Source: Sphingopyxis sp. H115 (lineage in GTDB: Bacteria > Pseudomonadota > Alphaproteobacteria > Sphingomonadales > Sphingomonadaceae). From it: a DNA stretch of 64,000 bases. The notes under the pieces were generated by a model. The model saw nothing but the letters and a program-made list of their open reading frames with translations, had not been told where the DNA came from and ran no database searches. This document shows, piece after piece, positions 9,881 to 54,397 of this stretch. The stretch spans positions 1 through 64,000 of the forward strand of contig NZ_LNSA01000023.1 in NCBI RefSeq assembly GCF_001468465.1. The letters are read 5' to 3'. Numbering within the stretch: the stretch's first letter is position 1; each line of letters starts with the position of its first letter. A program made the position numbers and the translations under genes.

Positions 9881-12822
9881 TCCATCCGCGCCGCCTTGGA
9901 GGCAAACCCGGCAATATCGCCCGCTATTATACGATCGGCGATTATTACACCAAGGGTGGGGATGAGCCCTCGGAGTGGGGCGGGAAGCTTGCGGCCGACC
10001 TCGGTCTTTCGGGGCCGGTCGACCGCAAGGCGTTCGAGGCGCTGCTCGCCGGCAAGGTCGATGGGCAGCAACTCGGGCGTATCCGGAATGGCGAAGTTCA
10101 GCATCATCCGGGGTGGGACTTTGCCGTCAAAGCCCCGAAGTCGGTGTCGATCATGGCACTGGTGACGGGCGATGAAAGGATCATCGCCGCGCATGAGCGC
10201 GCGGTCGGGACGGCCATCGCCTGGATCGAGGAGCATGCCGAACTCCGTCGGCGCATGGACGGCAAGATTACCCACGAGACGACGGGCCAGCTTCTCTATG
10301 CGCGTTTTACCGAACATGCCTCGCGCGAGCTCGATCCGCACCTCCATACCCATGTCGTCATCCTCAACATGACCCGCCATGCCGGTGACGAGCAGATGGT
10401 GAGCCTCGAATCCCGCGCCATGTTCGCCGAGCAGATGGTCGCCGGCCAGATCTATCGCAACGACCTCGCCCATGACCTCAGGGGGATTGGTTACGAGATC
10501 GAGTTCGACCCGCGCCGGGGGTTGTTCGAGATTCGGGGTGTCCCCAAGGAGCTGATCGATGCGACGTCGCGCCGGGCCGAGCAGATCAATGCGCACGCGA
10601 AGGAACATGGTTTCCAGGGCCAGGCCGAGCGATCGATTTCTTTCTTCGCGACCCGGCCCCCCAAGCAGAAAGTCGATCTCGACACGCTCCATGCCCAATG
10701 GGCAGAGCGATCGAAGGCTCACATTCCCGCGCTCGAAGCTGTCCGCGACGCCGCCGATGCGCGAGAGGAGAAGCATCTGGACGCCGATACTGCAACCGTG
10801 CGCCGCGCTGCGCTGTTCGGGCTTCGCCAGTCGGAGACACGCGAAGCGGTCAATAACCTTGGTCGGCTCATCCGCACCGGGCTCGCGTCGCATGTGGGCG
10901 ATGTTCGGTTCCGAGACATTCGCCCCCTCTTCGAGGAGCATGAAGCACGGCTCAAGCTGCTAAAGACGAGAGAGCCCACCGGTGACCAAGTCCTTACGCG
11001 CGGCAGAACCTCGCGCCGCGCCGCGCGGCTCGAGATCGCGCTATCGACGCATATCTCGCTAAGCCTTGGCGATGGGGTTCCGCTTGCGTCGCGGGAACGG
11101 ATCGACACGTCGCTGCGCGGGAGCATTCTCAATGATGACCAGCGACAGGTGCTCGCCGAAATCGCGATATCCAGTGACCGCGTCATGGGTGTTCACGGCG
11201 TCGCCGGCTCGGGCAAATCGACTCTCATCAAGCAGTTGAAGGCCGCGGCCGATCCGGGCTGGACCTTCATCGGATTGGCGCCGACCTCATCGGCGACCGC
11301 GAAACTCGGCCAGGACGCGGGTATCGACTCTCGTACCGTCGCCGCGCTCCTAGGCGGCGGCGGGCATGATATTACCGACCGTCATGTCCTGGTCGTCGAC
11401 GAGGCTGGCCAACTCGGTAGCCGACAAGCGCAGCGGATATTGCAGATCAGCCACGACACCGGTGCGCGCGTTCTTCTTCTCGGCGACAACAAGCAGACCG
11501 GGGCGATCGAGCAGGGCAAACCATTCTGGCTGATGCAGAAGCTGGGCCTGCCGACGGCTGAACTGACGGAGGCGGTCCGACAGCAAACCCAGTCGATGAA
11601 GGCCGCGGTGGCGAGCGCGCGCAGCGGGGATTATGCCGCGTCACTCCAATCGCTCGACAAGATCGTCAGCGGCGAGGGCGCGGACAAACTTGCGGCTAAC
11701 CTCGTCGCGGAATGGACGCGGCTCAAACCCGAGAACCGCGACAAGACCAATATCTTGGTTCTCGACAACGCGACCAGGCTGATCGTCAACACGCAGATCC
11801 GCGAAGTTCTGAAGCGGGAAGGGGCCGTTGCCGCCGAAGACGCGCGCATCGATATTCTTTCGCCCTCCGGTATGACCGACCAGGAGAAGCATTTTGCCCG
11901 GTTTTATTCGGGTGGCCAGGTCGTGACCTTCGCCCGCGACAATGCCGGGCTCGGTATCGCCGCCGGCGCCGAATATCGTGTCGACGGTATCGCACGCGAT
12001 GCTCGCGGACGCCAGCTCGTGCGGCTTGTCGACGAGAAGGGTGGGACGATCCTCTGGAATCCCCGTCTCGGCCGCGCGTCGCAAGTCAATGTGTTCGTCG
12101 AGGACAAACGCGACATCGCCGCGGGCGATCGCATTCAGTGGCGGCTTGCGACCAGGGAGCTCGGCCTCAAAAATGCGGAGCGCGGGACGATCGAGCGTCT
12201 AGACGGGACGATCGCGACTATTCGCTGGGACCGGAGCGTCGAGCCGCAGAAGATCGACCTCTCCGTTCATCGCACCTGGGATTATGGCTACGCCGAAACT
12301 GTCTATTCGGCGCAGTCGAAGACCTATGACCGCGTCTATGTCCTTGCCCCGGTCGGATCGGGCCTCGTCAATGGCCAGAATTACTACACCGCCATCACTC
12401 GTGCTCGTTACGGCGTGAAACTCTGGACCGAGGACCGTGATCGCCTCGTGCAGAAGCTCGAGAAGCATTCTGGCGAAAAGACGTCCTCGCTCGAAGGCTT
12501 GGGACGTCTCTGGCGCGACAGCCACCACATCCGCGGCGCCCGGCTCGCTGAAAGTCTCGACCGGGCGCGCGAGCTGATGCTGAGCACGCGTGCGGATCGC
12601 GCCGAGCGAAGGGCCGAGCGCGAGCGCGAATGGAACGAGGTTCTGCGTCCGCCATCGCTTGCGGAAATGCTCGCGGGCCGCGCGAGAGACGGCATGTCGA
12701 AGCTCGATGCCTATCTGAACGGCATTCTCGCTGGCTCGACGAAGAGCCAGCGCGCGCAAGCACCGACTGATCCCGAGCCCGCAGAGCAACCGCATTCCCG
12801 ACAGCAAGGACATGATCGATGA
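9877..12822 (+). CDS. traI: MobF-family relaxase-helicase TraI
   Basis: 981 residues. The TrwC-type relaxase domain fills the first 300 residues: paired tyrosines in A-R-Y-Y-T-I-G-D-Y-Y (17/18 and 23/24) and the metal-binding L-D-P-H-L-H-T-H triad (His155, 157, 159). A RecD-like helicase follows, with Walker A V-A-G-S-G-K-S near residue 445 and a V-V-D-E-A-G-Q Walker B near 508. It nicks the transfer origin, stays bound to the 5' end and unwinds the strand. It is shorter than F TraI (about 1750 residues) and like TrwC in size. Stop overlaps the next gene by 4 bp. Confidence 0.95.
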   Translation: MIHPRRLGGKPGNIARYYTIGDYYTKGGDEPSEWGGKLAADLGLSGPVDRKAFEALLAGKVDGQQLGRIRNGEVQHHPGWDFAVKAPKSVSIMALVTGDERIIAAHERAVGTAIAWIEEHAELRRRMDGKITHETTGQLLYARFTEHASRELDPHLHTHVVILNMTRHAGDEQMVSLESRAMFAEQMVAGQIYRNDLAHDLRGIGYEIEFDPRRGLFEIRGVPKELIDATSRRAEQINAHAKEHGFQGQAERSISFFATRPPKQKVDLDTLHAQWAERSKAHIPALEAVRDAADAREEKHLDADTATVRRAALFGLRQSETREAVNNLGRLIRTGLASHVGDVRFRDIRPLFEEHEARLKLLKTREPTGDQVLTRGRTSRRAARLEIALSTHISLSLGDGVPLASRERIDTSLRGSILNDDQRQVLAEIAISSDRVMGVHGVAGSGKSTLIKQLKAAADPGWTFIGLAPTSSATAKLGQDAGIDSRTVAALLGGGGHDITDRHVLVVDEAGQLGSRQAQRILQISHDTGARVLLLGDNKQTGAIEQGKPFWLMQKLGLPTAELTEAVRQQTQSMKAAVASARSGDYAASLQSLDKIVSGEGADKLAANLVAEWTRLKPENRDKTNILVLDNATRLIVNTQIREVLKREGAVAAEDARIDILSPSGMTDQEKHFARFYSGGQVVTFARDNAGLGIAAGAEYRVDGIARDARGRQLVRLVDEKGGTILWNPRLGRASQVNVFVEDKRDIAAGDRIQWRLATRELGLKNAERGTIERLDGTIATIRWDRSVEPQKIDLSVHRTWDYGYAETVYSAQSKTYDRVYVLAPVGSGLVNGQNYYTAITRARYGVKLWTEDRDRLVQKLEKHSGEKTSSLEGLGRLWRDSHHIRGARLAESLDRARELMLSTRADRAERRAEREREWNEVLRPPSLAEMLAGRARDGMSKLDAYLNGILAGSTKSQRAQAPTDPEPAEQPHSRQQGHDR

Positions 12823-14723: not shown

Positions 14724-15248
14724 ATGGACACCGTTCATCTTTGCGCGCTCCTCCGGGAACTGCGCGACCAACTCGCCGACGAAAGCAGGTTCTTGGGCGT
14801 CGTCAGCCGTCGCAGACGTCGACGTGAACTTCTCGCACGCGTGCAGGCCGTGCTTGCGGTCGATGCCGACGACACCGCTCCGTCAGGTCTCATTGAGGCG
14901 ACCAGGCAGGCCTGGGCGGCCGAAGACCGCGTGCTCATCGCCGATCGGGCACCTTGTCGCGTCGATCGCGCGGGCGTGTGGATCGGCGCCTGGATCCGCG
15001 CCGCAACCGGCCCCGGCAGCCGTGAAAGCATCGATCCCGAGCGCTTGGCGGCCGCCATCGCCGCGCTGCCGCCTCTTGCCCGAGACGTGTTCACATTGTC
15101 CTCCCGCGGCAGCCTCGACTATCCGGCGATCGCCGCGGCCCTTGGCATTTCGGAGGATTTGGTTCGTCGCGAACTTGCCGCGGCGCTTGTCGCGATCGAT
15201 CAGACTCTGACGATCCAGCAGCGCGATAACCCGTCGCCCATTGCCTGA
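14724..15248 (+). CDS. sigma-factor region-4-like HTH protein
   Basis: 174 residues from ATG 14724 (AAGGA 8 bases upstream). The C-terminal 60 residues resemble the sigma-70 region 4 helix-turn-helix: L-P-P-L-A-R-D-V-F-T-L, then L-D-Y-P-A-I-A-A-A-L-G-I-S-E-D-L-V-R. The N-terminal half lacks a region 2, so it is not a full sigma factor. DNA binding is likely; the partner is unknown. The next gene begins 29 bp downstream on the same strand, so the two may form one operon. Confidence 0.6.
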   Translation: MDTVHLCALLRELRDQLADESRFLGVVSRRRRRRELLARVQAVLAVDADDTAPSGLIEATRQAWAAEDRVLIADRAPCRVDRAGVWIGAWIRAATGPGSRESIDPERLAAAIAALPPLARDVFTLSSRGSLDYPAIAAALGISEDLVRRELAAALVAIDQTLTIQQRDNPSPIA

Positions 15249-15277
15249 TGGCCCCCAGTCATGCAGGAAGAATTGTC

Positions 15278-16210
15278 ATGCGCACGGACATTACGCACCT
15301 TCCCGCCCGCGGCCAGCGCGAACTCGAGGCCATCGTGCAGGCGATTTTCGAAGAATTCGAAGATGCCCACAAGCTCGCGAACGGCGAACGCAAGGCTGGC
15401 CGGATCCTGAAAGTCATTCTCTATGGCTCGATGGCGCGCGGCGAGGGGATATACGAGCCGCACACCGAGAAGGGCTATGTCTCGGACTATGACATCCTCG
15501 TCATCGTCAATCAGGTCGAACTTACCGATCACGAATATTGGTATCATCTCGAGAACCGGCTGGCGCGCGATTATATGGTTCTTCACCGGCTGCGTCATCC
15601 GGTGAGCCTGATCGTCCACACGCTCCAAGAGGTGAATAATAATCTCGCCGATGGACGCTTCTTTTTCTTGGACGTCGTCAAGGATGCGGTTGCGCTGTAT
15701 CAATCGGACGACAGCGAGCTCGCGACGCCACGACCCAAGCGCCCTGCGGATGCGCTCGCGCTGGCACGCGAATATTTTGACGAATGGTACCCGAGCGCCG
15801 GCGAGTTCTTTGCCATGTTCGAAGCTGCTCAAAATCAAGGGTTTCGAAAGAATGCCGCGTTTCAGCTGCATCAGGCTACTGAGCGTCTCTATCACACGTT
15901 GCTGCTGACCTGCACGCTGTACACGCCGCACAGCCATAATCTGGAAAATCTCCGCAACCAGGCGAGGAAGGTCGACCGGCGCCTCGTCCATGTCTGGCCC
16001 GACGACGACAGGCAGTCGCGCCGCCGCTTCAGCCTCTTGAAGGACGCCTATGTCAAAGCCCGCTATTCGAAACATTATCGGATCAGCGCGGAAGATCTCG
16101 CATGGCTGGGCGAGCGCGTGCAGGAGCTGAGCGCGATCGTCCGGGAAATCTGCACCGAGAAACTGGCTGAGCTCGAACGCGCTGCCGCGTCAGAGTCGGG
16201 CAATATCTGA
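15278..16210 (+). CDS. MNT nucleotidyltransferase-HEPN fusion protein
   Basis: 310 residues. Residues 46-75 hold the minimal nucleotidyltransferase motif G-S-M-A-R-G (50-55) and S-D-Y-D-I-L-V (69-75). Residues about 170-300 are a HEPN domain (A-F-Q-L-H-Q-A-T-E-R-L-Y-H, then P-H-S-H-N-L-E-N-L, then A-Y-V-K-A-R-Y). In two-gene systems the HEPN protein is an RNase toxin and the MNT enzyme nucleotidylates it; here both are one chain, as in some solo proteins of alphaproteobacteria. The classic R-x4-6-H RNase motif is not obvious, so toxicity is uncertain. AGGAAG precedes the chosen ATG. Confidence 0.8.
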   Translation: MRTDITHLPARGQRELEAIVQAIFEEFEDAHKLANGERKAGRILKVILYGSMARGEGIYEPHTEKGYVSDYDILVIVNQVELTDHEYWYHLENRLARDYMVLHRLRHPVSLIVHTLQEVNNNLADGRFFFLDVVKDAVALYQSDDSELATPRPKRPADALALAREYFDEWYPSAGEFFAMFEAAQNQGFRKNAAFQLHQATERLYHTLLLTCTLYTPHSHNLENLRNQARKVDRRLVHVWPDDDRQSRRRFSLLKDAYVKARYSKHYRISAEDLAWLGERVQELSAIVREICTEKLAELERAAASESGNI

Positions 16211-16499: not shown

Positions 16500-17048
16500 A
16501 TGAACCGATCCGATAATGATCGCGCCCCTGTGCCGGAAACCGGCGAAAATGATCGGTTGATCGACCGGTTGTTCCGGTCGGAGGCGCCGCGCCTCGCACG
16601 CCTCTTCCGCCGATCGATCCGGAACCAAGATGAGGTGCACGACCTTGTTCAGGACACATTTGTCAATTTCGTCGAGGCGCGCCCTAGGTCTAAGGTGCGC
16701 ACCCCCGCTGCCTATCTCCGCACGATTGCCCGAAGTCTGTTGTGGGAGCGCACGCGGCGTCCCCGCGCCCATGATCGAGCAAACCATGTCCCGGTGGACG
16801 AGGCCCACGAGTTGTGGGTCGATCCGGAACAGGAATGGATGATGGAGGCGTCGGATTTCATGCGCCGCTACGAGGAGGCGCTTTCAGAACTTCCATCGCG
16901 AACGCGGGAAGTATTCCGGCTCCATCGGCAGGAAGAACTGACCTATCAGGAGATCGCCGAGAAGCTCGGTATCACCGTTGACGGTGTCAAATACCATATG
17001 AAGAAGGCACTGCTCTATCTCGATCACAGGGTGAACGCCAATGGCTGA
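16500..17048 (+). CDS. FecI-type ECF sigma factor (lasso locus)
   Basis: 182 residues from ATG 16500; an in-frame ATG at 16353 adds 49 residues of non-sigma composition. Region 2 includes L-A-R-L-F-R-R-S-I-R-N-Q-D-E-V-H-D-L-V-Q-D-T-F, separated here into helix 2.1-2.2; region 4 is L-P-S-R-T-R-E-V-F-R-L, then T-Y-Q-E-I-A-E-K-L-G-I-T. It would transcribe the receptor/peptidase genes on a signal relayed by FecR. It overlaps the anti-sigma gene by 8 bp. About 290 bp upstream is without a gene. Confidence 0.88.
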   Translation: MNRSDNDRAPVPETGENDRLIDRLFRSEAPRLARLFRRSIRNQDEVHDLVQDTFVNFVEARPRSKVRTPAAYLRTIARSLLWERTRRPRAHDRANHVPVDEAHELWVDPEQEWMMEASDFMRRYEEALSELPSRTREVFRLHRQEELTYQEIAEKLGITVDGVKYHMKKALLYLDHRVNANG

Positions 17049-18051
17049 AACACATCGCTATGAGCAAGATCAGCTCCGCCGCGAGGCCGGCGAATGGTTC
17101 GTTATCATGAACGATGAGAATGTGAGTGAGGAAGACGAGCGGGAATTTAAGCGATGGCTCGCGCGTGGTGCGCTGCATCGCGCGACCTATAATCGCATCG
17201 CTGGCCTTCATTCCGCCGGCAAGCGCGTCGATTGGGAAAACCTGCCGCCGCCCAAGCCGGTGCGCGGGACGGCCAAACGCGTCTGGATCACCGTAATCGG
17301 ATGCATGGCGCTCATAGGCTTCGTCGCATGGCGCGCGAGCGGAGCACCAGCCTTCTGGCCGGAAGCGGATACGACACAAATGGCGCAGGGCCACGCGGAC
17401 GCATCGCTCCAATATTCGACCGAAGCTGGCGAGGTGCGCGAGTTTTCACTTCCGGATGGGTCTCGCCTGACCTTGGACGGTGACACCACGATCCGAGCAT
17501 GGTTTCGATCTGGCGAGCGCCGTCTACGACTAGGCCGCGGCCGAGCGCGCTTCGATGTCGCGCACGAAGAACGTCCGTTTGTCGTTGACGCGGGCGACAG
17601 CGAGATCGTTGCCGTGGGAACTGTCTTTGACGTAGCTTTTCGCGACAAGCGCACGGTGGAGATTCATCTCCTGCGGGGCGCCATTGACGTTCGCCGAGCG
17701 CAGTCGGCAGGGAAGGCTGAACCGATCCGGCTCGAGCCAGGTGACGAGCTCCGCTATGCGATCGAAGGTTCGGGCAACTCGGCAAGTGTTCAAAAACGAG
17801 GAACGGAAGCCGACTGGACGGAGGGCGTGTCCGAAGCGCAGGAAGCGCGCGTTGCAGATCTCATAGCCAGAGTGAACAATCGATCAGCGACTAAAATCTA
17901 CCTTGAAGACCCCGCCATCGCGCCGCGCATCGTGTCTGGGCTAAACGGGATCGATGACCCGGAATTGCTCGCTGAGAATCTGTCGAATCTTTACGATCTG
18001 CAGATAACGCGGAGCGGGAACCGCATTATTTTAGGCGATCCGCAGAAATAA
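17041..18051 (+). CDS. FecR-type anti-sigma factor
   Basis: 336 residues. Cytoplasmic N terminus with the FecR_N-like E-A-G-E-W-F-V and E-F-K-R-W-L motifs, one membrane segment about 81-97, and a periplasmic FecR domain (S-L-P-D-G-S-R-L-T-L-D, then R-R-L-R-L-G-R-G-R-A-R-F-D-V). The periplasmic part would contact the STN domain of the receptor at 18144 and the cytoplasmic part the sigma factor at 16500. A D-L-Q-I-T-R-S-G-N C-terminal segment resembles a second secretin/STN-like fold. Gap to the receptor gene is 92 bp. Confidence 0.88.
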   Translation: MAETHRYEQDQLRREAGEWFVIMNDENVSEEDEREFKRWLARGALHRATYNRIAGLHSAGKRVDWENLPPPKPVRGTAKRVWITVIGCMALIGFVAWRASGAPAFWPEADTTQMAQGHADASLQYSTEAGEVREFSLPDGSRLTLDGDTTIRAWFRSGERRLRLGRGRARFDVAHEERPFVVDAGDSEIVAVGTVFDVAFRDKRTVEIHLLRGAIDVRRAQSAGKAEPIRLEPGDELRYAIEGSGNSASVQKRGTEADWTEGVSEAQEARVADLIARVNNRSATKIYLEDPAIAPRIVSGLNGIDDPELLAENLSNLYDLQITRSGNRIILGDPQK

Positions 18052-18143
18052 CGCTTCCTTCGACTACCCTGCGCAGCGTGCGCAACGCTCATACCCTGTA
18101 GGCACGGGCAAGAACTCGCCTGGCTGTACTGAGGGGAGAGTCC

Positions 18144-20714
18144 ATGCAATTTCGTTACAGCGTGGCGGGCTTCGTGCTCGCCGCGACCACCAGCTTTGTG
18201 CCGGTTGCTTCAGCGATCGCTGCTGAGTCCGCCATCACCGCCAGCTATGATCTTCCTGCCCAGGATCTGTCTTCCGCGCTGAATACAGTGCGCCGAATTT
18301 CCGGCACAAACATCGTCTTCGACAATGAAGACGTCCGACAGCGAAAGGCGCCGCGGTTGGCGGGAAACTTCACTCCTGAGGAAGCCGTCAGGCGTCTGAT
18401 CGAGGGATCCGGTCTGGTCGTCCGAAATACGAAAAGTGCGATTATAATCGGCCGGGCCGGTACACCGCGTTCTCCGGACCAAGTCGAGACAGCCGAGCAG
18501 GAGATCACCGTTACGGGATCGCGCATCAAAGGCGCGCGACTTGCATCGCCCGAGATCAGAATTGATCGCGGCGATATTCAGCGAGCCGGGTTTGGTGATC
18601 TTGGCGAAGCCGTGAGATCGATCCCGCAAAATTTCGGCGGGGGCCAAAACCCGGGGGTCGGGAAGGGCGCTCGCTCTGGTGCAAATACTAACGATAATGT
18701 GACCGGAGGTTCCGCCGTCAACTTGCGCGGCCTCGGAGCCGATGCAACGCTCACCCTTCTGAACGGTCACAGATTGTCTTTTGGGGGTTCGGCGCAGGGC
18801 ATCGATATTTCCGGTATCCCGACTGAAGCCATCGAGCGCGTCGAAATCATTCCTGACGGCTCATCGGCGCTTTATGGTTCCGATGCGGTGGCTGGCGTCG
18901 TGAACGTCATTTTGCGGCGTTCCTTTGACGGCGTTACCGCTAACGCGCGCGTCGGCACGGCAACCGATGGAGGCGGCACTTCGCAGCTTTATCAGATCGT
19001 GGCTGGCAAGCAGTGGCAGAGCGGTAACCTGCTCGTCGCATATGGTTTTCGCCGAAATGAGGAGGTGGATGCAGAGGATCGGGACTATACCAACTATCTC
19101 CCGGAACCTTATCCGCTGATCAAAGGGCAGCGCGTGCACTCCGCGCTCGTAAGCGGGTCACAAAGCCTGTTCGATGATGTGCGCTTCAGTCTCGACGCTA
19201 CCTTCGTGGATCGGGCCATGGACGGGAGCTACAACACGAATAACATCCTTAGCGTCTCCCATACGACCGATCGCTCGCTTTCGATCAGCCCGTCTCTGAC
19301 CATCCCCGTCGATGACAACTGGTCGCTTTCGGTCGCGAGCACCTATGCGAGAAGTCGGAATCGGCGCCAAACCGCGTCGTCATCGAACGGCACCGTATTC
19401 CTCCGCGAAGACTTTTGTTACTGCCATTCGCTCCACGCCGTTGAAGCCTATCTGGAAGGCTCAGCGCTGTCGTTGCCCGCAGGGGATGTGCGGGCGGTGC
19501 TGGGCGCCGGCTACCGGAAAAATCGCTATCGCGTTCACGGGAGATCGTCGGCGAACGGAGATCAATTCGTCACAACTGGAGGGGATCAGAGCGATACCTA
19601 CGCATTCGGCGAAATCCAGATCCCGGTCATTTCAGGGCTGAACGAAACGGCATTCGCAAAGGCACTGACGATCTCGGTAGCCGGCCGCTACGACCGGTAC
19701 AATTATAGCGGTAGCGTCACAACGCCGAAGATCGGCCTGATTTACAGCCCAAATAATGCCGTCGACCTGAAATTCTCCTGGGGGCGTTCGTTCAAAGCTC
19801 CCACCCTCGCGTCCATTTATCAGACGCAATATGCGTACCTCCTTCCGCTGACATATTTTGGGAGGAGCGACGCTGCACCAGATGAATCAGCCCTCTATCT
19901 TGATGGCGGTTCCACATCATTGCGGCCGGAGCGAGCCACAACCTGGACTGCGACGGTCGCCTTTCACCCCAAGTCGTTGCCGGGGCTTAACGCGGACCTG
20001 TCCTACTTCCGGGTGAAATATATCGACCGTGTTCGCACTCCAATCGGGTTTTACCCCGAAGCACTCAGTCCGAATTATGCGAACTATGTCACACTGAATC
20101 CCAGCGAAGTGGCGCTCCAGGCAGCCATCAATGGCGCGTCCGGCGGCTTCCTCAATTATACCGCCGGGGCCTACGACCCGGCGTCGGTCCTGTACCTCAT
20201 CGACAACAGAAATATGAATGTCGCGGCGCAAAAAATCGAGGGCGTGGATGTCAATTTGTCCTATCGCCTGGATCTGCACGACGGCGCGCTGGTCACAGCG
20301 TTGAATGGCAGTTGGCTTCGCAGCCGCCAGAAGAACGGATCAGCTTTCCCCTATTTTGACCTTGCCGGAACGATCTGGAACCCACCCCATTTTCGATCGC
20401 GCGCCAGTGTCGGTTGGGAAGGGAATTCCGCCGAAGCATTCGTCTATTTCAACTATATTGGAGGCGTCGAAGATCGTCGTGCGGCGCTCCCGATTGACGG
20501 GCGATCAATGTTCACCGTCGATCTTTCGCTCAGCTATCGAACGTCCACTTCCGGCGGCTTTCCGAACGGTTTCCGTATCGGTCTCAGCGTCGAGAATCTG
20601 TTCGACAAGCGGCCCCCCTATTTGGCGCCGGCACCCTTCACGGAACCCTATGACTCGACCAATTATTCCCCAATGGGGCGCTTTGTCGCGTTGTCGCTAT
20701 CGCAGTCTTTCTAA
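18144..20714 (+). CDS. TonB-dependent receptor with STN signalling domain (lasso locus)
   Basis: 856 residues from ATG 18144 (GAGGGGAGAG upstream). Signal peptide of about 28 residues (A-I-A-A-E-S cleavage area), an STN domain at about 33-105 (Y-D-L-P-A-Q-D-L-S-S-A-L), a plug (I-T-V-T-G-S-R-I, then N-L-R-G-L-G-A-D-A-T-L), and a 22-strand-type barrel ending in aromatic F. The STN domain marks a transducing receptor acting through FecR. In known lasso loci such receptors bind or import the peptide. The stop shares its last base with the start of the peptidase gene, so translation is coupled. Confidence 0.9.
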   Translation: MQFRYSVAGFVLAATTSFVPVASAIAAESAITASYDLPAQDLSSALNTVRRISGTNIVFDNEDVRQRKAPRLAGNFTPEEAVRRLIEGSGLVVRNTKSAIIIGRAGTPRSPDQVETAEQEITVTGSRIKGARLASPEIRIDRGDIQRAGFGDLGEAVRSIPQNFGGGQNPGVGKGARSGANTNDNVTGGSAVNLRGLGADATLTLLNGHRLSFGGSAQGIDISGIPTEAIERVEIIPDGSSALYGSDAVAGVVNVILRRSFDGVTANARVGTATDGGGTSQLYQIVAGKQWQSGNLLVAYGFRRNEEVDAEDRDYTNYLPEPYPLIKGQRVHSALVSGSQSLFDDVRFSLDATFVDRAMDGSYNTNNILSVSHTTDRSLSISPSLTIPVDDNWSLSVASTYARSRNRRQTASSSNGTVFLREDFCYCHSLHAVEAYLEGSALSLPAGDVRAVLGAGYRKNRYRVHGRSSANGDQFVTTGGDQSDTYAFGEIQIPVISGLNETAFAKALTISVAGRYDRYNYSGSVTTPKIGLIYSPNNAVDLKFSWGRSFKAPTLASIYQTQYAYLLPLTYFGRSDAAPDESALYLDGGSTSLRPERATTWTATVAFHPKSLPGLNADLSYFRVKYIDRVRTPIGFYPEALSPNYANYVTLNPSEVALQAAINGASGGFLNYTAGAYDPASVLYLIDNRNMNVAAQKIEGVDVNLSYRLDLHDGALVTALNGSWLRSRQKNGSAFPYFDLAGTIWNPPHFRSRASVGWEGNSAEAFVYFNYIGGVEDRRAALPIDGRSMFTVDLSLSYRTSTSGGFPNGFRIGLSVENLFDKRPPYLAPAPFTEPYDSTNYSPMGRFVALSLSQSF

Positions 20715-22840
20715 TGGCCCTCGTCATGGAATGCATCGCGCGGCGATCGGCGAACCGCGCGTTCACGTTAATTTTCCTTACTACCGCAGCGCTGCCGGGT
20801 GCGGCTTTCTCACAAGCTGCGCCGCTGCCACCGACGGCGCCCGCTCTGCAAGTTGTGGCTACGAATGCGACCGGCGTCGACTTGCAATCAGCGAGGGACA
20901 CAAGCCCGTCATGTCCGACGATAGTTCCTCCGGTCGCATCGCAATCGATAGCACGAAGTGTGGAGGCGGATGATATCATTCGCCTCCGCGATTTCGGAAA
21001 GATGGATGCGTCTGAGGCAGACCCGGGCGGCTTTGCTGTGTCGCCCGACGGAAGATATCTGGCAATCCAGCTTCGACAGGCGGACCCCGTCTCCAACAGC
21101 TACTGCCAAGCCCTGCTGATTTATGATCTCGGCAATGTTCGAACTGCGCCGCGCATTGTCGACATGGGCGGCGACTACGTGCGCCGGACGATTACGCTCT
21201 ACGGTCTCGAGGGCTTCCCCACCGGCACTCCGGAACCTTTGACGCCGAAATGGTCAAAAGATGGCAAGTGGCTGGCCTTCCTGAAACGAGAAGAAGGAAT
21301 CACGCGACTTTTCGTGACCGCGCTGTCCGAAGGTGGCACGAGAAGTATCTCTGACGGGCGTTTCGACGTCGCCGACTTCGCCTGGTCAGATGACGCATCG
21401 CAGTTGCGCTATCGACAACGGGAAAATCACGCCGCTGCCATAGAACGACTGCAAACCGAGGGGCGAAGCGGTTTCCAATTCGACGAGCGATTTTGGCCGC
21501 TTGCCGAGCTCACGCCATATCCACGCGAGACACCTGCGGAAGTCGAACGTTTTGTCATGATCGGAGAGGCCGATACGTTCGGTGGGTCCGGCAGTGCATC
21601 ACAGCAGGATAGAATGGCGGAGGAGGCAGGCCGCGCTCCGACGCGCAAAGGCGCCGCTGTTGCGATCATCGACCATCGACAACTCGCGGCGAGGGTCGGC
21701 GACAAAAATATAGTTTGCCAATTTAAGGAATGCGCCCGCGTCGCAGCGGCATGGACGGTTCCGGGAGCCGACGAAATTGTCTTCATGCGCCGAGAAGGGT
21801 TCGCCGCAGCGCGAACCGGCATTTATCGATGGGCTCTGGGTGAGAACAAGCTGACGAATATCCTCACAACAGACGACGCGATCCGCGGATGTGATTTTCA
21901 ACTCCTTTTGGTTTGCGCCCGAGAAGCTTCTCTTCAACCCCGCGACATCGTTGAAATCGATCTGAGGTCGGGAAAAATCCATCAACTTATCGAGCTCAAC
22001 CCCGAATGGATCGCGCGCAGGCTCGGAACAGTGACCCGCCTGCGTTGGACCAACAAATATGGAATCGAAACGTTTGGCGATCTCGTGCTTCCACCGGACG
22101 CTCGGCACGATGAGCGTTTGCCACTTGTTGTCGTGCAGTACAGCAGTCGCGGCTTTCTCAGAGGCGGAACTGGCGACGAATATCCGATTCAGGCTATCGC
22201 GGCGAAAGGCTTTGCCGTCCTGAGTTTTGACCGTCCGCTCGACTACCGGACCGCGATGTCTCGCGCCGACCGATCGGTATCCCGACGGCACATCGCGAAC
22301 GCGTGGACCGATCGTGCGAGCGTTCACGATTCTCTTATGCGCGGAATCAAGCTGGCGGCTGACACGCACCCGATCGATGCCGACCATATCGCGATCACGG
22401 GACTCAGCGATGGCGCGTCCACCGCGACATATGCGCTAATCCATGCCGATATATTCTCGCTGGCGCTCATTAGCTCATGCTGTGAAGACCCGAGCATTTT
22501 GGAGACCGGTGTTGGGGAAGCCTATGCGAGCATTTTGCGCACGAATGAATATCCACTGCCTTGGGAACAGCACAAATCGAGTTGGAAGCGCGTCAGTCTC
22601 GCGATGAACGCAAGCCGCGTGTGCGCGAAGATTATAATTCAGAGCGCGGATCGGGAAGCGCGCCTGGCCACTGCCTCCCTTCGGGCGCTGCGGCAATTCG
22701 GCCGTGATGTGACAATGTTCATTTTCCCCGATGAGTATCATGTGAAATGGCAGCCGGTTCATCGTCAGGCCGTTTTCAGACGAACGCTCATGGAACTCGA
22801 CGACTGGCGGCGATTGCCTAAGGCGCGGTGTTCAAGGTGA
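20714..22840 (+). CDS. S9-family lasso-peptide isopeptidase candidate
   Basis: 708 residues. An N-terminal signal peptide (about 15-34, A-A-F-S-Q-A) predicts periplasmic location. The C-terminal prolyl-oligopeptidase-type hydrolase has Ser565 in G-L-S-D-G, Asp646 in Q-S-A-D-R and His676 in D-E-Y-H; the middle is a predicted beta-propeller (repeated W-S-x-D segments). Proteobacterial lasso loci of the astexin type encode such enzymes, which hydrolyse the isopeptide bond of the cognate lasso peptide. Coupled to the receptor gene by a 1-bp overlap (TAATG), it probably acts on imported peptide. Its 3' end overlaps the convergent cyclase gene by 23 bp. Confidence 0.88.
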   Translation: MALVMECIARRSANRAFTLIFLTTAALPGAAFSQAAPLPPTAPALQVVATNATGVDLQSARDTSPSCPTIVPPVASQSIARSVEADDIIRLRDFGKMDASEADPGGFAVSPDGRYLAIQLRQADPVSNSYCQALLIYDLGNVRTAPRIVDMGGDYVRRTITLYGLEGFPTGTPEPLTPKWSKDGKWLAFLKREEGITRLFVTALSEGGTRSISDGRFDVADFAWSDDASQLRYRQRENHAAAIERLQTEGRSGFQFDERFWPLAELTPYPRETPAEVERFVMIGEADTFGGSGSASQQDRMAEEAGRAPTRKGAAVAIIDHRQLAARVGDKNIVCQFKECARVAAAWTVPGADEIVFMRREGFAAARTGIYRWALGENKLTNILTTDDAIRGCDFQLLLVCAREASLQPRDIVEIDLRSGKIHQLIELNPEWIARRLGTVTRLRWTNKYGIETFGDLVLPPDARHDERLPLVVVQYSSRGFLRGGTGDEYPIQAIAAKGFAVLSFDRPLDYRTAMSRADRSVSRRHIANAWTDRASVHDSLMRGIKLAADTHPIDADHIAITGLSDGASTATYALIHADIFSLALISSCCEDPSILETGVGEAYASILRTNEYPLPWEQHKSSWKRVSLAMNASRVCAKIIIQSADREARLATASLRALRQFGRDVTMFIFPDEYHVKWQPVHRQAVFRRTLMELDDWRRLPKARCSR

Positions 22841-24596
22841 CTTGCGGCGATGCTCTGCACCAAGCCTCGACGTCGCACAGGCGGAGAATTCGTCCCATAT
22901 CATTCACGCCAAATGTCAGGTCGTCCTTCAGCTGCTGTTCGATCATGCTGCGATCAAGAATACCCGCGCCGCTGAGTAGTCCGTCCATCAGCATTTCGCG
23001 AATGAGAACTCGTCGCTCGCGCAGCATCTGCAATTGAAACTGGCCGAGGCCTCCTTTTGAGATCCGCCATGCGACTTTGGCGGGAAGATCCCGCTCCATG
23101 GCTCGGCGGGCTATGTAACGACTTCGCCCCCGGCCGACCCAAAGCCAAGTCGGTATGCGTAGGCAAGTCTCGACAAGGGGCTGCGACAATAGGGGAAATA
23201 TCCCCTTCATCAAATCGGAGCGCCGATAACCATTCATGTTATAGCAGCTGTTGTATAGTCCATGAACATGTTCAACCTTTCCGGGAAGCGGTCGGTTTTT
23301 TGGCGGAGGCCACGGCAGCCCAGGTGGCGATTCATTGGATGGAAGATCTTTGGAAAGAAATGCATCATTCGCGCGCCAGTTGGCGTGGTGCTTGCCTTTC
23401 CATCCCTTCCTGATCGCCTTCCAGCCGAGATCCCACGCGTTGCACTGATTTGCACGCGCCACCTCAAAGACGGTTCGTGCAAAATTTGGACTCGGACCTT
23501 TCGCTCGAAGGGTGTCCGCCGCGGGTCCGGAACTCTGCAGATGGCAGAATACGGCGTCGCCGCCCTGACCGTTGACAAATGTGTCGATCGACCGGTCCGT
23601 TGCCATTTCGAGGGAGATGCGATCGGTTTCTTGAACAAAGGACCGCGAGTGGGGTCGGGGCAAGTGCGGCCGCGCCGAATGAAGAAGATCTGGTCTTCGA
23701 TGATCAGGCGCACCCTCGTCCAGGGAGATATGTAAGTGGCTGGCTACGCTTCTTGCAAAATTCCTCTCGTCCCCATCGTTTCCTTCGCTGAACATCGTGA
23801 TCGCGTGAATTTCACGCCCAGCAGTGGCGGACCCCGCCGCGATTATCGACGAATCCAAGCCCCCTGAAAGATCGAGGGCGTAAAACCGTCCGCGCGGCAT
23901 CTGCGCTCCGATGCAGCGAAGAATTTCCCGGCGAACAAGTTCCATGGCTTCATCTGGATCGGTGATCAGGACGTCGGGATTGGTGAACTTCCAAGGGTCC
24001 CAGTGAAAACTGGCCTCAAGCGCCGGTGGGGCTTCAAACTTGATCGATTCTCCACACCTGATCTCGGAAACTCCGGAGAGGCATGTGGATGACATGCTGA
24101 GATTATCCCAAATCAGATGTCTGGCGACTGATTCCCAGTTTATCGACGGCGGGCGCCTTGCCATTTCCAGCAATAGCCTTGTGTCCGAGGCAACAACGAG
24201 GACTCCGCCCTCGACTATGTAATAGGCATTGATGCTACAGAATGGGGATCGTTCGCAGGTGATCACGCCGTTGGACAAACTGGCCAGGACGATATAGGAA
24301 CCCCAATATTCATTGTTCAAATGGCCGCCTCGATACGCCGCCGTGACACGCGCCCCTTCGTCGATGTTCTTTCCAAATGCGCGCGACGGGACATGCCGGC
24401 AGAAGACGTCGCCAACGACGACGCCAGTGCCATCGGTGAGGTGGTTGATTTCCAACCCGCTGTCGGAATAGACGACAAGGCGTTCGTCACGATGGGTCAC
24501 GCTCAGCCCCGACTGATGAGCTATTTCATCCAAATGTAGGTCGAGGGCGCATGGGACCTGGGTCGGCGAGCTGACGGCTAAGAATCTGCCGATCAT
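22818..24596 (-). CDS. lasso peptide cyclase (asparagine-synthetase-like, C protein)
   Basis: 592 residues. The N-terminal half resembles a degenerate glutamine-amidotransferase domain (F-C-S-I-N-A-Y-Y segment at 119-126) without the N-terminal catalytic Cys, as usual for lasso C proteins. The synthetase domain carries the ATP-pyrophosphatase motif S-G-G-L-D-S-S at residues 244-250. The enzyme adenylates the acceptor Asp or Glu side chain and closes the macrolactam with the N-terminal Gly. It starts inside the B stop codon (ATGA overlap), so B and C are translationally coupled. Confidence 0.92.
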   Translation of the reverse strand: MIGRFLAVSSPTQVPCALDLHLDEIAHQSGLSVTHRDERLVVYSDSGLEINHLTDGTGVVVGDVFCRHVPSRAFGKNIDEGARVTAAYRGGHLNNEYWGSYIVLASLSNGVITCERSPFCSINAYYIVEGGVLVVASDTRLLLEMARRPPSINWESVARHLIWDNLSMSSTCLSGVSEIRCGESIKFEAPPALEASFHWDPWKFTNPDVLITDPDEAMELVRREILRCIGAQMPRGRFYALDLSGGLDSSIIAAGSATAGREIHAITMFSEGNDGDERNFARSVASHLHISLDEGAPDHRRPDLLHSARPHLPRPHSRSFVQETDRISLEMATDRSIDTFVNGQGGDAVFCHLQSSGPAADTLRAKGPSPNFARTVFEVARANQCNAWDLGWKAIRKGWKGKHHANWRANDAFLSKDLPSNESPPGLPWPPPKNRPLPGKVEHVHGLYNSCYNMNGYRRSDLMKGIFPLLSQPLVETCLRIPTWLWVGRGRSRYIARRAMERDLPAKVAWRISKGGLGQFQLQMLRERRVLIREMLMDGLLSGAGILDRSMIEQQLKDDLTFGVNDMGRILRLCDVEAWCRASPQVTLNTAP

Positions 24597-25240
24597 CGCA
24601 CTGCTCTGATAGGTTCGAAGGGGCCGACCATTTCGATCGTATCGTTGAGGATGAGGTCATCATCCTGAAGCCAGCAATGGGCTTCGAATGGATGAAGCCG
24701 AACACCGAAAACCAGTGTGCTCTCATACCCGTTTTGGGCCAAAAGATGCTGAAGGCCGATTGAACGGAGCAGGCAGCGATCCCTCCTGATCGCAAACCGT
24801 TCTACATATTCGAATGCTGATATCAGACCGCTGCGGTTTGACGCCGGAGGGCCTTCTGTCTGGGCGATCATGTTCTTGCGTTGCACCCACCACAGCAATT
24901 CATCGAATCCGCGCAGTGCAATGGTGAATCGTGCGCTGGCGAGAGATCTGAATGCCGATGCAATTTGCCGGCCGGATGGCGAACGCATATCGAATTCCGC
25001 GGAATGTTCACGAGCTGGGCGAGTAATTGCGCAGCAGGAACTACGGGCTCCTTCCGCATTGGAGTTCAACCAGTGGCGATCCTCAATCAGGCGCCGAAGG
25101 CTCGGTTGCAGTGAATCAACGTCTCCTCTTCCGAGGGCAGACGCAGCCTCCTTTTCCAAGCGTGAATATCGATTTGCGAGGACATCCAGAAAGACGACCT
25201 GACCATCGATTTCGCAGCTCGAAACCCACGAAGGAAGCAT
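24593..25240 (-). CDS. lasso leader peptidase with fused recognition domain (B protein)
   Basis: 215 residues from ATG 25240; an upstream in-frame ATG at 25297 lies in the hairpin and would add residues encoded by it, so it is unlikely. Residues 1-65 are a PqqD-like leader-recognition element (E-I-D-G-Q-V-V-F-L-D, then Y-S-R-L). Residues 140-210 are the transglutaminase-like protease with Cys156 (R-D-R-C-L-L-R-S), His188 (F-E-A-H-C-W) and Asp200 (I-L-N-D). The fused B1-B2 form is typical of proteobacterial lasso loci. It removes the leader before cyclisation by C. Confidence 0.9.
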   Translation of the reverse strand: MLPSWVSSCEIDGQVVFLDVLANRYSRLEKEAASALGRGDVDSLQPSLRRLIEDRHWLNSNAEGARSSCCAITRPAREHSAEFDMRSPSGRQIASAFRSLASARFTIALRGFDELLWWVQRKNMIAQTEGPPASNRSGLISAFEYVERFAIRRDRCLLRSIGLQHLLAQNGYESTLVFGVRLHPFEAHCWLQDDDLILNDTIEMVGPFEPIRAVR

Positions 25241-25262
25241 GAGTGACGCCTTGGCGGAAAAA

Positions 25263-25294
25263 GCCGGCCGGGAATTTATCCATTCCCGGCCGGC
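25263..25294 (-). terminator. strong hairpin between lasso precursor and B genes
   Basis: GCCGGCCGGGAAT pairs perfectly over 13 bp with ATTCCCGGCCGGC around a six-base loop. On the minus strand it is followed by TTTTT. It starts 6 bp after the precursor stop codon and ends 22 bp before the B start, so it should act as an attenuator and 3' stabiliser of the precursor mRNA. Confidence 0.85.
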
Positions 25295-25300
25295 CATTGA

Positions 25301-25438
25301 TCAGTCGACGACGATGCCGAGCGGCTGGCGCGGCTGCACACCGTCCGGCGCGATGTTTTCGTTCGACCCGTGGGTCTCTTCGGTGACGGTGCCGAGGTCG
25401 ATCAGTTCAGCGTCGCGATAGTTCGGTTCCTTGTCCAT
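25301..25438 (-). CDS. lasso peptide precursor (A protein)
   Basis: 45 codons from ATG 25438, with AAGGAG 6 bases upstream. Too short for ordinary gene calling. The leader (residues 1-23) starts M-D-K-E-P-N-Y and ends T-E-E-T-H, with the conserved Thr at the penultimate position (Thr22). The core begins at Gly24 with G-S-N-E-N-I-A-P-D and ends P-L-G-I-V-V-D (residue 45), 22 residues in all. Gly24 and Asp32 would form a nine-residue macrolactam; Glu27 is too close to be the acceptor. The Asp-ending tail recalls astexin-2/-3, but the sequence is otherwise unfamiliar to me. Arg37 or the paired Gln/Pro region could serve as plug. Ring size and processing site are predictions. Confidence 0.88.
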   Translation of the reverse strand: MDKEPNYRDAELIDLGTVTEETHGSNENIAPDGVQPRQPLGIVVD

Positions 25439-25492
25439 GATAGTCTCCTTTCCCGCCGCACAAATGCGACACCGAAAGAATCCCAGTTTCAG

Positions 25493-25521
25493 AGGATATA
25501 TCCAAACATATATGTTCTGAA
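25493..25521 (-). promoter_or_regulatory. candidate precursor promoter overlapped by two palindromes
   Basis: Two adjacent perfect palindromes, GGATATATCC (25494..25503) and AACATATATGTT (25505..25516), lie 55-80 bp before the precursor start. A weak TTCAGA-N17-TATCCT promoter on the minus strand overlaps both. They are plausible operators for the GntR-type regulator encoded just upstream. Confidence 0.45.
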
Positions 25522-25576
25522 TCTGAAGCTATATATGGAAGGGGCGAACCCCGGTATCGGCATTCTTGAGGCCGCC

Positions 25577-26179
25577 CTAGGTAAGTCCACTCATGATTTC
25601 AGGAAGATTACGGATACGGCGTCGATGATATGCGACTACCGATCGCCTGATTGACTGCCTGTTTCCGCGTTCAATCTTCCCGAGCAAAGCATCGAATTCG
25701 CGGCGCAAACCGCTCAATTTACGCTCTTCGGCGCGCCGGATCCGACGCATTCGATCGTTGAGATTCCGGACCAAATGCATGAAAAAGACGTTCTGGGTCA
25801 CCTGGGAGATCGAGTCGAAGAGTAGTTCAATCGGCGGCGGCGCGCCGAGCTCGTCCTGTTGATTAAAGTCATGGGAAACAAGGAGACTGCTCCGGCACGA
25901 GGCGGCTGTGAGCATTACATATTGGCTCAGAATATAGAGGTGGCGAGCCGCATTCTCGTCGAGCGACGGTATTTCAAATCCGCCAGTTACCGGCATGTCG
26001 AGTAAAGCTTCGCCGACGAGCCGCAACATCGCCTCGCGGACCGGAGTCGCGCTCATTCCATATCGATCAGCTAGTTGTCCGATATTGATTCGCCCAGACG
26101 CGATACGACCTTCAATGAGATCGAGTTTAAGGCTGGTGTAGGCTCTTTGGCTAAGCCCGTGATCTGCGCTCATCTTCAT
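25577..26179 (-). CDS. GntR-family regulator of the lasso locus
   Basis: 200 residues. The N terminus is a GntR winged helix (A-Y-T-S-L-K-L-D-L-I-E-G-R-I, then L-A-D-R-Y-G-M-S-A-T-P-V-R-E-A-M-L-R-L). The C-terminal 120 residues are helical, FadR/VanR-like in length, without obvious metal-binding His pattern. Start may be M1 or M3. It is on the same strand as the precursor, 138 bp upstream, and its gene end adjoins the AT-rich palindromes. GntR-type genes next to lasso loci are known in alphaproteobacteria; the effector here is unknown. Confidence 0.82.
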   Translation of the reverse strand: MKMSADHGLSQRAYTSLKLDLIEGRIASGRINIGQLADRYGMSATPVREAMLRLVGEALLDMPVTGGFEIPSLDENAARHLYILSQYVMLTAASCRSSLLVSHDFNQQDELGAPPPIELLFDSISQVTQNVFFMHLVRNLNDRMRRIRRAEERKLSGLRREFDALLGKIERGNRQSIRRSVVAYHRRRIRNLPEIMSGLT

Positions 26180-26825: not shown

Positions 26826-26843
26826 GAGCAGCGGCCCCCTTGG

Positions 26844-27169: not shown

Positions 27170-27180
27170 CGTCGGACCTT

Positions 27181-30239: not shown

Positions 30240-30761
30240 ATGTCCATTTCCGGAAACTCTTTCGATTCCTTCAATCGGCATCTTCTGATAGGCTGCCGAC
30301 CGAGAAAACCCATGCAGGCGAGCCAACCTTCCAACGTATCAACAGCCGAGACCGCGCGGCCGCCCGTTGCGCGCAATTGGCTCTGGAAGCCTTGGTACGC
30401 GAAGCTCTGGTGGGCGGCGATCCCGGTCTACTGGACAGGCGCGGTGGCCTCGCTGAAGGTCCCGGCACTGGCGGAGTTCTACACCAGCGCTCTCGCAGGC
30501 TATCTCAACATGCTGTTCTTTCCGCCGACGGCACTACTGGTGCTTGGTTTCGGGTTCGTCAAAGCTTGGCTCGACAGGCCGCTATCTGGCGAGCCTCTCT
30601 CGGACGAGGAAATCGGCGAACTCGAGCAGATGAGGATGGAGGACGAGCACTGGGAGCGTCTTGGGCGACCTCATTGGTCGGTCGACATCTATGATCCGCG
30701 CTCCGGCGGACTATATATCGGCAACCCACTCAGCCTTCAGCACCCTGGACGTCGAGATTAG
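30240..30761 (+). CDS. membrane protein convergent with traG
   Basis: 173 residues from ATG 30240, which has GGGAAGG 5 bases upstream; an ATG at 30312 is the alternative. Two hydrophobic segments (about 58-78 and 91-115) flank a short loop, and the C-terminal 50 residues are acidic (L-S-D-E-E-I-G-E-L-E) then end in a G-L-Y-I-G-N-P segment. No family recognised. The last 4 bp overlap the traG stop on the other strand. Its location at the end of the mating-pair genes suggests a conjugation accessory role; this is inference. Confidence 0.6.
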   Translation: MSISGNSFDSFNRHLLIGCRPRKPMQASQPSNVSTAETARPPVARNWLWKPWYAKLWWAAIPVYWTGAVASLKVPALAEFYTSALAGYLNMLFFPPTALLVLGFGFVKAWLDRPLSGEPLSDEEIGELEQMRMEDEHWERLGRPHWSVDIYDPRSGGLYIGNPLSLQHPGRRD

Positions 30762-33700: not shown

Positions 33701-34498
33701 ACTGTAACCGTGGAACAGCGACGGATCGGAAAGCCGGTCCGAGATATGCGTCCAAGTCTCGGTGCAGCTCACCGTTGTTCCGCCCTTGTCGGTGGCAGTG
33801 AAGACGGTGCTGAAGGTCGCCGGCCCAGACATCGCGGCAAAAGCCGCGGGAAGATCGTTCGTGGTACGAAAGAGTTGATCGTCGTCGATGCCATAGGCGG
33901 GAGAGACGCGCGCGACGGGATAGCATTGCCGGACATAATCCTTGATCGTTGCATCGAGGAAGGTGTCGGTCATCGGCCCTCGCGGGCTAACAGCGTTCAG
34001 GAACAAGTCAAAGCTGTGACCACCCGCACCGAACTCGAGCTTGGCATTGGGGTCGATCGTATTATCGTCGATCGTCTCGGCGATCGCCCGCTCCATCATA
34101 TTGGTGACGCCCGCGACGAGAACGATCAGGTTCGGGACGTCGCCAACGGGCTGATAGGCGTTGCGGACCCGGTCGTAGACATGGACGGTGCCCGTGGTCG
34201 CAACCATGCCGACGAAAAGCCCGATGCCGACGAGCGTCTGAAAGCCGAAAGCGACGATCCCCATGCCGTTGCCGCGCACGCTCGCGAGTAGCGCGCCGAG
34301 CGCGATCCCGGCGACCGCGACGATGAGCACCAGCGTTTCGTAGCGCGGATCGGCAAAGATCATCGAGACGAGCCGGAACGCGTCGACGGTCTCGTTGAAC
34401 CCGTCATAGGTGTGGAAGCTGGTTTCGAGCGCTAGCGCAGCGGTCGGCACGGTGGCGGCGAGGGCGGCGATCAGCGCGGAAAGGAATCGGGAGCACAT
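30758..34498 (-). CDS. traG: mating-pair stabilisation protein TraG
   Basis: 1246 residues. An N-terminal signal-like segment, then about five inner-membrane segments in the first 470 residues, match the F-type TraG N-terminal domain. The long soluble remainder is Ala/Arg/Glu-rich and helical, as expected for the periplasmic part involved in mating-pair stabilisation and, in F, entry exclusion. It is the last gene of the leftward operon, 5 bp after traH. Size is somewhat above F TraG (about 940), the excess lying in the helical part. Confidence 0.9.
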   Translation of the reverse strand: MCSRFLSALIAALAATVPTAALALETSFHTYDGFNETVDAFRLVSMIFADPRYETLVLIVAVAGIALGALLASVRGNGMGIVAFGFQTLVGIGLFVGMVATTGTVHVYDRVRNAYQPVGDVPNLIVLVAGVTNMMERAIAETIDDNTIDPNAKLEFGAGGHSFDLFLNAVSPRGPMTDTFLDATIKDYVRQCYPVARVSPAYGIDDDQLFRTTNDLPAAFAAMSGPATFSTVFTATDKGGTTVSCTETWTHISDRLSDPSLFHGYSQQVCERTGYDVSNAAQLQRCRSNLGALGDKMLATPLTLQQLMTNINLGNAVGDVLFEDSPATAARVMANRAVVSSGLATMSTANEWMPTIRATVFGIMLFMMPIALLFILTPINLRVASFALGLFVFVAMWGVIDAGIYQLTLGRAMDVLAEMRSNHVAANAWMLAPGSAMKALAIFGSFRTAAAGLAGAFVFTVFRFSGNVFTSFTSGALGVQGQGTAAATPIMTHEGRAQALEAQASATGTTARRSAASSFGHFGERSTFGTNRAFGAAGGYLSDRTPGAPGATGFGLGVTDAARELGGLAPALVGRDLTHPATAAAVRANATTSAIHNFAEKDALRSLGTSYFGPGQAGERAFAGFAQNMVQWKAFGDTRAYDMMMQGAQRHFERNGYDQKDAALKASTVIAQASADPTFAKLIANTYDQEAMLRNDLTAAQVNVGAMEGRRDYAGDNVAGIERRNVATEQAWRTGNNEGQRNSASMLGLSIDETSRRIGFINTLSGEARSSAITSLSRATGRNEAQVMRALETYNASVQLGTADGATAEAAREGTSVYGRTREAAGYDFAERSGKLDAQREVGHDGVRGAARIGEQRRQSDNFGFAEGAAAAGVSTREAARLDAFIQALSRTAGNQVDMAEGGAAGIADRARNERLTRIVDNERLTRMQGLLRSEGINMTKRELAMAQNGDLNLNVSPDVARQLRAAGLINDSQYGTIAEGGRARFSFADNDLLVSSSTGFTQSARSDTSTKYEAGKQAAPDTIENMLSSGPEGQAMMANWLRGGFEMDRNGEWRLNPQVADTLQRDVSAIMAQTGWQRAISRSAQDQISMGTAVGGNVGASAQSSDYASRGGPAKGKERSQTATSGSVGGSLGYSSSDMGTSNETARASLDIVNYDVREAISAAERAAARSANPEMTFTSELNRQVLGPEGLRNRYLGQADSARGTADITGPMTSLEQSSILSSGRFSTDLANGPFDGDSSYKKR

Positions 34499-34503
34499 CG
34501 CGA

Positions 34504-51277: not shown

Positions 51278-51306
51278 CGATATTCCTCCGAGGATGGGCG
51301 GGGGCA

Positions 51307-53985: not shown

Positions 53986-53993
53986 CTGCGGCC

Positions 53994-54260: not shown

Positions 54261-54397
54261 CGACCCTTCTCCTCCTGCTACGGTCCTCACCAGCGAAGCA
54301 AATCGAAAGCGAAGACGAGGGTCCGGGAGCACTTCCTCCCGGTGACCGGAACGTGGGCGAGCGTGGAACCCGAATGCTTGCCCACGTTCCGATGCCG

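Follow-up and report, generated by a model that had tools for sequence, protein, structure and literature searches.

Lasso peptide clusters that encode an isopeptidase have a layout described as "almost constant" in the accessible part of PMC9266682, where the role of their peptides is called enigmatic. Two described examples are the astexin-2/-3 locus of Asticcacaulis excentricus, with its AtxE2-type isopeptidase, and the sphingocin locus of Sphingomonas sp. BPH, for which the available excerpt of PMC11006600 gives a 45-amino-acid precursor, A, B and C genes, an isopeptidase and a TonB receptor. The same excerpt reports a phenanthrene-utilization mutant whose transposon lies in gene B of the BPH locus. 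Here we analyze a corresponding locus of Sphingopyxis sp. H115 in a stretch of 64,000 nucleotides (hereafter "the window": positions 1 to 64,000 of contig NZ_LNSA01000023.1, assembly GCF_001468465.1). The window is part of contig C23 (67,291 bases) in a genome of 63 contigs. We consider it highly probable (roughly 0.87) that this is a lasso-peptide locus of the isopeptidase type and that a conjugative element carries it as cargo. Its parts are as follows.

16500..17048, + strand: FecI-type extracytoplasmic function (ECF) sigma factor (Pfam Sigma70_r2 and Sigma70_r4_2)
17041..18051, + strand: FecR anti-sigma regulator (Pfam FecR, 63.6 bits)
18144..20714, + strand: TonB-dependent receptor with STN signaling domain (Pfam STN 34.3, Plug 56.5, barrel 99.5 bits)
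20714..22840, + strand: S9 protein, a lasso isopeptidase of the AtxE2 family (NCBIfam NF033523, 674.5 bits, cut-off 400)
22818..24596, - strand: C, asparagine-synthetase-like macrolactam cyclase (Pfam Asn_synthase, 83.5 bits; SGGLDSS motif in the translation)
24593..25297, - strand: B, RRE-like leader-binding domain fused to a transglutaminase-like cysteine peptidase (lasso_biosyn_B2, 79.3 bits, cut-off 33)
25301..25438, - strand: A, lasso precursor of 45 amino acids (Pfam Subterisin, PF24178, 31.2 bits, cut-off 27)
25496..25514, - strand: block resembling an operator or promoter, some 80 bp upstream of A, present as a single copy in the window
25577..26179, - strand: GntR-family regulator upstream of the precursor (Pfam GntR, 35.9 bits, cut-off 27)

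All eight genes are open frames in the window; we placed the FecI start at the Met codon at 16500, the longest frame opening at 16353. They form two facing sets, in which FecI, FecR, the receptor and the isopeptidase run rightward, and C, B, A and GntR run leftward from 26179. Where the two sets meet tail to tail, the isopeptidase gene and C share 23 bases. The G+C content of the locus is 57.5%, compared with 63.3% and 62.5% in the left and right flanks of the window. The hallmarks of isopeptidase-type clusters are present: B plus C, the isopeptidase, the TonB receptor, the sigma/anti-sigma pair and a GntR gene before the precursor, which itself carries a leader Thr at -2, Gly1 and an Asp/Glu ring acceptor. 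The first-pass annotation of this DNA had proposed a gene set extending from precursor to GntR and had assigned it to the astexin type. Each part of that set proved to be an open frame with a matching family, and both the AtxE2-family match and the layout in the excerpt of PMC9266682 agree with the assignment. Because that layout is almost constant among isopeptidase clusters, the gene set itself is not new, and the locus is another member of an already known type.

The window locus resembles the astexin-2/-3 locus in its AtxE2-type isopeptidase and in the layout given in PMC9266682, as far as the source is accessible. However, it differs in core sequence, has one precursor where the available part of PMC7549694 gives more than one, and, unlike its counterpart, sits between transfer genes. 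The sphingocin core, which is only a prediction in the excerpt of PMC11006600, also differs from that of the window. Subterisin/benenodin precursors are similar to the window precursor with respect to the Subterisin score, leader pattern, Gly start and final Asp. A locus on a Sphingopyxis macrogoltabida plasmid (NZ_CP009430; L039) carries these eight genes in identical order, and its precursor is 62% identical, with a nine-residue ring, Arg14, a similar tail and an upstream block matching at 20 of 21 bases. In contrast, its isopeptidase is only 48% identical, other ring residues are present, and the plasmid is typed non-mobilizable.

The S9 protein matches the NCBIfam model named "Atxe2 family lasso peptide isopeptidase" and aligns to AtxE2 (PDB 5txc) with an E-value of 4.3e-105 across query residues 79-693 (615 residues). 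The catalytic Ser, which is replaced by Ala in 5txe, lines up in this alignment, as do the regions of the Asp and the His, with the roles of these AtxE2 residues taken from the accessible part of PMC9266682. Our own look at the N terminus predicts a signal peptide.

The B protein is represented in Pfam by its peptidase half only, and Cys175 and His207 are unchanged in nine of nine aligned B sequences. A structure model derived from that alignment (mean predicted local distance difference test score 79.8) places a strand/helix unit at the N terminus, ahead of the peptidase. When the model was searched with Foldseek, the top three PDB matches were to TbiB1, a lasso leader-binding protein (probability 0.96-0.98, E 0.027-0.05). 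These matches support, although not strongly by E-value, a putative fusion of a leader-binding unit to the peptidase, as had been suggested for this gene. The C protein reaches the cut-off of no NCBIfam lasso cyclase model, and was assigned by its Asn_synthase match and by synteny.

For the precursor, we predict a leader spanning residues 1-23 and a 22-residue core from Gly24 to Asp45, with a nine-residue ring from Gly24 to Asp32 and a calculated monoisotopic mass of 2256.15 for the lasso. These boundaries, which the first-pass annotation had also drawn, are borne out by conservation among 16 distinct precursors, comprising that of the window, two from its own genome (L028 and L029) and 13 from other loci. 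The precursors of L020 and L046 repeat members of this set; L017, L021, L024 and L025 were left out, and in L014, L022 and L028 we chose an inner Met as the start. Residues L15, G16, T22, G24 and D45 are invariant in all 16 sequences, and D32 and G41 each occur in 15; the precursor that lacks D32 has Glu as ring acceptor. The two loci from the same genome are further lasso loci in their own right, located on contigs C4 (L028) and C1 (L029); the C1 locus gives a partial isopeptidase match, whose 160.9 bits are below the family cut-off of 400.

The core had been described earlier as unfamiliar and as lacking an obvious steric plug. Exact-string searches with the core, the cores of three relatives and a tail string returned no match in the literature searched, which excludes subscription papers and supplements. 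An aromatic plug is indeed absent, but this is ordinary rather than unusual because, by our reading of the alignment, the tail past the ring acceptor lacks Phe, Trp and Tyr in 11 of the 16 precursors. Four relatives, grouped only after inspection of the alignment (L039, L014, L016 and L040), have cores of 22 residues with Asp9, and each of them retains Arg14 (Arg37 in the window precursor), Gly18 and the final Asp. Since it is kept in all relatives that match the window in core length and ring size, Arg37 would be the natural plug candidate. The L045 precursor, which is 46% identical overall, has an eight-residue ring and lacks Arg14.

From this gene content, we infer the following mechanism. 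B would hold the leader and cut after His23, and C would then link the amine of Gly24 to the side chain of Asp32 around the threaded tail to give the 22-residue lasso. Outside the cell, the TonB receptor would bind the lasso, and the STN domain of this receptor would signal through FecR to FecI and thereby raise expression of the receptor-isopeptidase operon, while the isopeptidase would linearize the imported lasso. The block at 25496-25514, a candidate GntR operator or A promoter, is probably the site through which GntR controls the A-B-C promoter.

This 19-base block emerged from direct comparison of loci with the window itself as the reference, and it has one match within the window. Matches are located at -79 to -84 from the precursor in L039 (20 of 21 bases), L014 (17 bases) and L016 (15 bases), and at -92 in L023 (15 bases); in the other 11 of 15 relatives, the block is not distinguishable from shuffles at the 1% level. 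GntR adjoins the precursor in six of eight plasmid loci that we opened. The locus of a Novosphingobium P6W plasmid (L040) has neither an annotated GntR gene beside the precursor nor a distinct block, a single case that fits the proposed operator. Likewise, the PP1Y Lpl locus (L043) has no GntR gene beside its precursor and no distinct block, and its GntR gene is located elsewhere. Perfect palindromes were considered separately as a shared operator and rejected, being seen in the window and missing from L039, L014 and L016.

The carrier is indicated by the following transfer genes.

7817..9880, + strand: conjugative coupling protein of the TraD/TrwB type (TrwB_AAD_bind, 417 bits)
9877..12822, + strand: TrwC-type relaxase/helicase (TrwC, 287 bits)
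30758..35931, - strand: TraG and TraH (TraG_N 156 bits, TraH 283 bits)
41044..55922, - strand: F-type transfer genes including TrbC, TraU, TraC, TrbI/TraB, TraE and DsbC (Pfam)

As first proposed, the lasso genes therefore lie between two transfer blocks, with the relaxase side at 7817-12822 and the F-type mating genes within 30758-55922. C23 gave no match when searched with two integrases as queries.

A search for related loci yielded 16, three of which are near-identical to the window. Their hosts are Sphingomonadaceae 3R27E2-A (G001), an uncultured Sphingopyxis metagenome-assembled genome (G002) and Sphingopyxis 2PD (G003). C23 positions 1532-67197 are held by G002 and positions 5038-24068 by G001, both at 99.4% identity, and G003 holds positions 21967-51921 and 55558-65499 at 99.9%. 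Sequence differences pile up toward the left: identity is 99.99% for 10837-24068 in G001 and 99.94% for 10837-32837 in G002, and to the left of 16300 it is 95% in G001 (from 3673) and 97% in G002 (from 1515). All eight lasso genes in G002 are full length, with 99.6-100% protein identity to those of the window. Between the four hosts, rpoB regions share 91.8-93.6% identity (that of G002 compared across 2.1 kb only). Near-identical DNA in a collection that holds one genome per species argues for recent movement of the element between species. Sequence comparison thus supports the view that the locus can move, in keeping with the earlier suggestion of spread by conjugation. The G003 copy (L057/L058, contig C18) carries a deletion equivalent to window positions 51921-55558, which removes TraE and truncates the genes for TrbI and DsbC.

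We also surveyed 199 Sphingomonadaceae genomes, in one search of which scoring covered five candidates per genome. Isopeptidase matches with E-values no higher than 1e-80 came from 23 genomes (31 rows), and 22 of these genomes exceed the family cut-off. TrbI lies within 75 kb of at least 11 of the 31 isopeptidase rows, versus at least 7 of 83 B2 rows without isopeptidase, counts that are based on 150 rows among which the F-type TrbI of the window is not included. The B2 model NF033537 served as the control because, of its 110 rows, 83 lack an isopeptidase row within 15 kb.

A protein search of PLSDB recovered isopeptidase relatives on 22 plasmid records, every one less than 60% identical; 16 of these cover at least 80% of the query and 10 are typed conjugative. 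Near-identical DNA was not matched among PLSDB plasmids. The facing arrangement of FecI-FecR-receptor-isopeptidase and C-B-A recurs in all eight plasmid loci opened (seven from sphingomonads and one from Asticcacaulis), including pCHQ1, whose unannotated isopeptidase was recovered by translated search. The tra genes of pCHQ1 start about 3 kb past GntR, and trb genes adjoin the precursor of PP1Y Lpl. Such lasso loci seem to travel with conjugative DNA in sphingomonads.

Several results weigh against a lasso locus carried as conjugative cargo. Among 293 Foldseek matches of the B model to PDB, none reaches an E-value of 0.001 and the best RRE match is at 0.027; a PDB sequence search with B and C likewise gave no significant match. 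The precursor scores 28.1 bits with the NCBIfam benenodin model (NF033522), below the cut-off of 33, and there is no dedicated exporter among the eight locus genes. Regarding the carrier, which may be a plasmid or an integrated element, no overlap was found between the ends of C23, and a tRNA-Leu/integrase pair at one G002 contig end has no matching attachment repeat on that contig.

Two of the near-identical copies are cut within the lasso genes. The G001 contig starts inside C, at window position 24068, and the G003 contig starts inside the isopeptidase gene, at 21967, preceded in both contigs by about 113 bases that C23 lacks at full length. The corresponding end features are as follows.

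L012, 13232-13345: repeated insertion-sequence-like end
L015, 1-113: repeated insertion-sequence-like end

The end sequence occurs three times in G003, and that of G001 has seven full-length occurrences in its genome, five of which open a contig. We read these ends as insertion-sequence-like because they are repeated within the genome and, in G001, often stand at a contig start.

G001 keeps FecI, FecR, the receptor and the isopeptidase at full length and protein-identical to the window; its assembly yielded no A, B or GntR and no front part of C. The reverse holds for G003, which keeps A, B, C and GntR at full length and whose assembly yielded no FecI, FecR or receptor and no front part of the isopeptidase. 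Only short, distant matches were obtained for window 24069-27700 in G001, by a search that did not cover 27700-56000, and for window 1-21967 in G003. The missing halves may be only apparent, since these are draft assemblies and 40 candidates per genome were scored. What the locus adds to the known cluster type is this cross-species identity of the carrier, together with two apparently complementary cut-down copies. With near-identical copies in four host species, matched strains may be at hand for separating production, uptake and hydrolysis. It is an unlikely idea that the lasso, receptor and isopeptidase form a public-good or signaling module of sphingomonad mobile elements, which repeats have split into natural receivers (G001) and donors (G003) of one peptide.

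With regard to purpose, we tentatively favor, at somewhat less than even odds, a retrievable molecule that acts in a siderophore-like or self-sensing manner and is not an antibiotic. One alternative is an antibacterial lasso peptide, with the isopeptidase and receptor serving self-protection. A degrading enzyme is encoded beside the precursor, the locus has no exporter of its own, and astexin-1 has narrow activity according to the accessible part of PMC9266682. However, the same portion of that source describes the remaining known isopeptidase-cluster lassos as lacking antimicrobial activity. Moreover, the G003 assembly has full-length A, B and C genes and is missing the receptor and most of the isopeptidase, a combination that a self-poisoning product would make unlikely if the locus is expressed there. 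We therefore regard an antibacterial function as improbable.

It is also improbable that the lasso genes are decaying passenger cargo with no present function. In two of the three other copies, repeated sequence ends interrupt the lasso genes, as such decay would produce, but in the window all eight reading frames are open and have their full-length, near-identical protein counterparts in G002.

A further proposal is that the peptide signals the presence of the element to neighboring cells and tunes conjugation. The position of the locus between transfer blocks, and the nearby tra genes on pCHQ1 and trb genes on Lpl, are compatible with such a carrier-status signal. So is the finding of an acyl-homoserine lactone (AHL) synthase/PhyH cluster near 11 of 32 lasso loci versus 0 of 21 loci with only a HEPN-nucleotidyltransferase gene (described below), although these two sets are centered on different genes and the lasso set includes near-duplicates. 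On the other hand, both F-type and Trb-type systems occur among the carriers, regulation of tra genes by FecI or GntR was neither found nor tested, the contig of the window (C23) has no detectable LuxI (AHL synthase) or PhyH, and islands gather unrelated cargo. We consider such a signal very unlikely.

The AHL synthase and PhyH genes were observed by translated search near L019, L020, L043, L044, L077, L083, L084, L089, L091 and L094. When eight AHL/PhyH examples were scanned, two had the AHL synthase domain and seven had PhyH, with both in one; in L084, a single open frame carries both domains. The luxI-phyH pair is known in sphingomonads from the accessible portions of PMC3704786 and PMC4288048, and the term "lasso peptide" is absent from those texts as available.

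Immediately to the left of the lasso genes is a gene that recurs near such loci.

15248..16210, + strand: fused nucleotidyltransferase-HEPN gene (HEPN 28.9 bits; PDB 4nqf, E 1.6e-32)

In the same survey, this gene occurs in 42 of 199 genomes (86 rows, partial ones included), namely in 21 of the 23 lasso genomes versus 21 of the 176 others. It is found within 50 kb of 20 of the 31 isopeptidase rows, where uniform placement expects 1.7, a weak null because islands cluster cargo. Within 100 kb the number rises to 22 of 31, at a variable spacing of 3-67 kb; two other rows have the gene 106 and 729 kb away, and seven have none on the contig. The gene is also present on 361 plasmid records, among the matches listed mostly from Rhizobium, Sinorhizobium and Agrobacterium, and at least 13 of the 22 isopeptidase plasmids carry it among the best 60 of these 361 records. 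At least nine copies lie 11.6-12.4 kb from TrbI, and a tyrosine integrase is near 10 of the 21 HEPN-only loci. Because a gene so widespread on plasmids is most simply seen as shared mobile cargo, its strong co-location is better explained by common carriers, and we rejected as highly improbable a functional partnership with the lasso system.

Three other observations concern the surroundings of the locus. A small protein encoded at window 26331-26825 has no Pfam or NCBIfam match, and relatives of it are present in 6 of 32 lasso loci, that of the window counted. An AbiEii/AbiEi-type toxin-antitoxin pair is located at 5630-7294 on the same element. Finally, a second TonB-dependent receptor barrel is encoded at 61948-63966, on the same contig and beyond the lasso locus.

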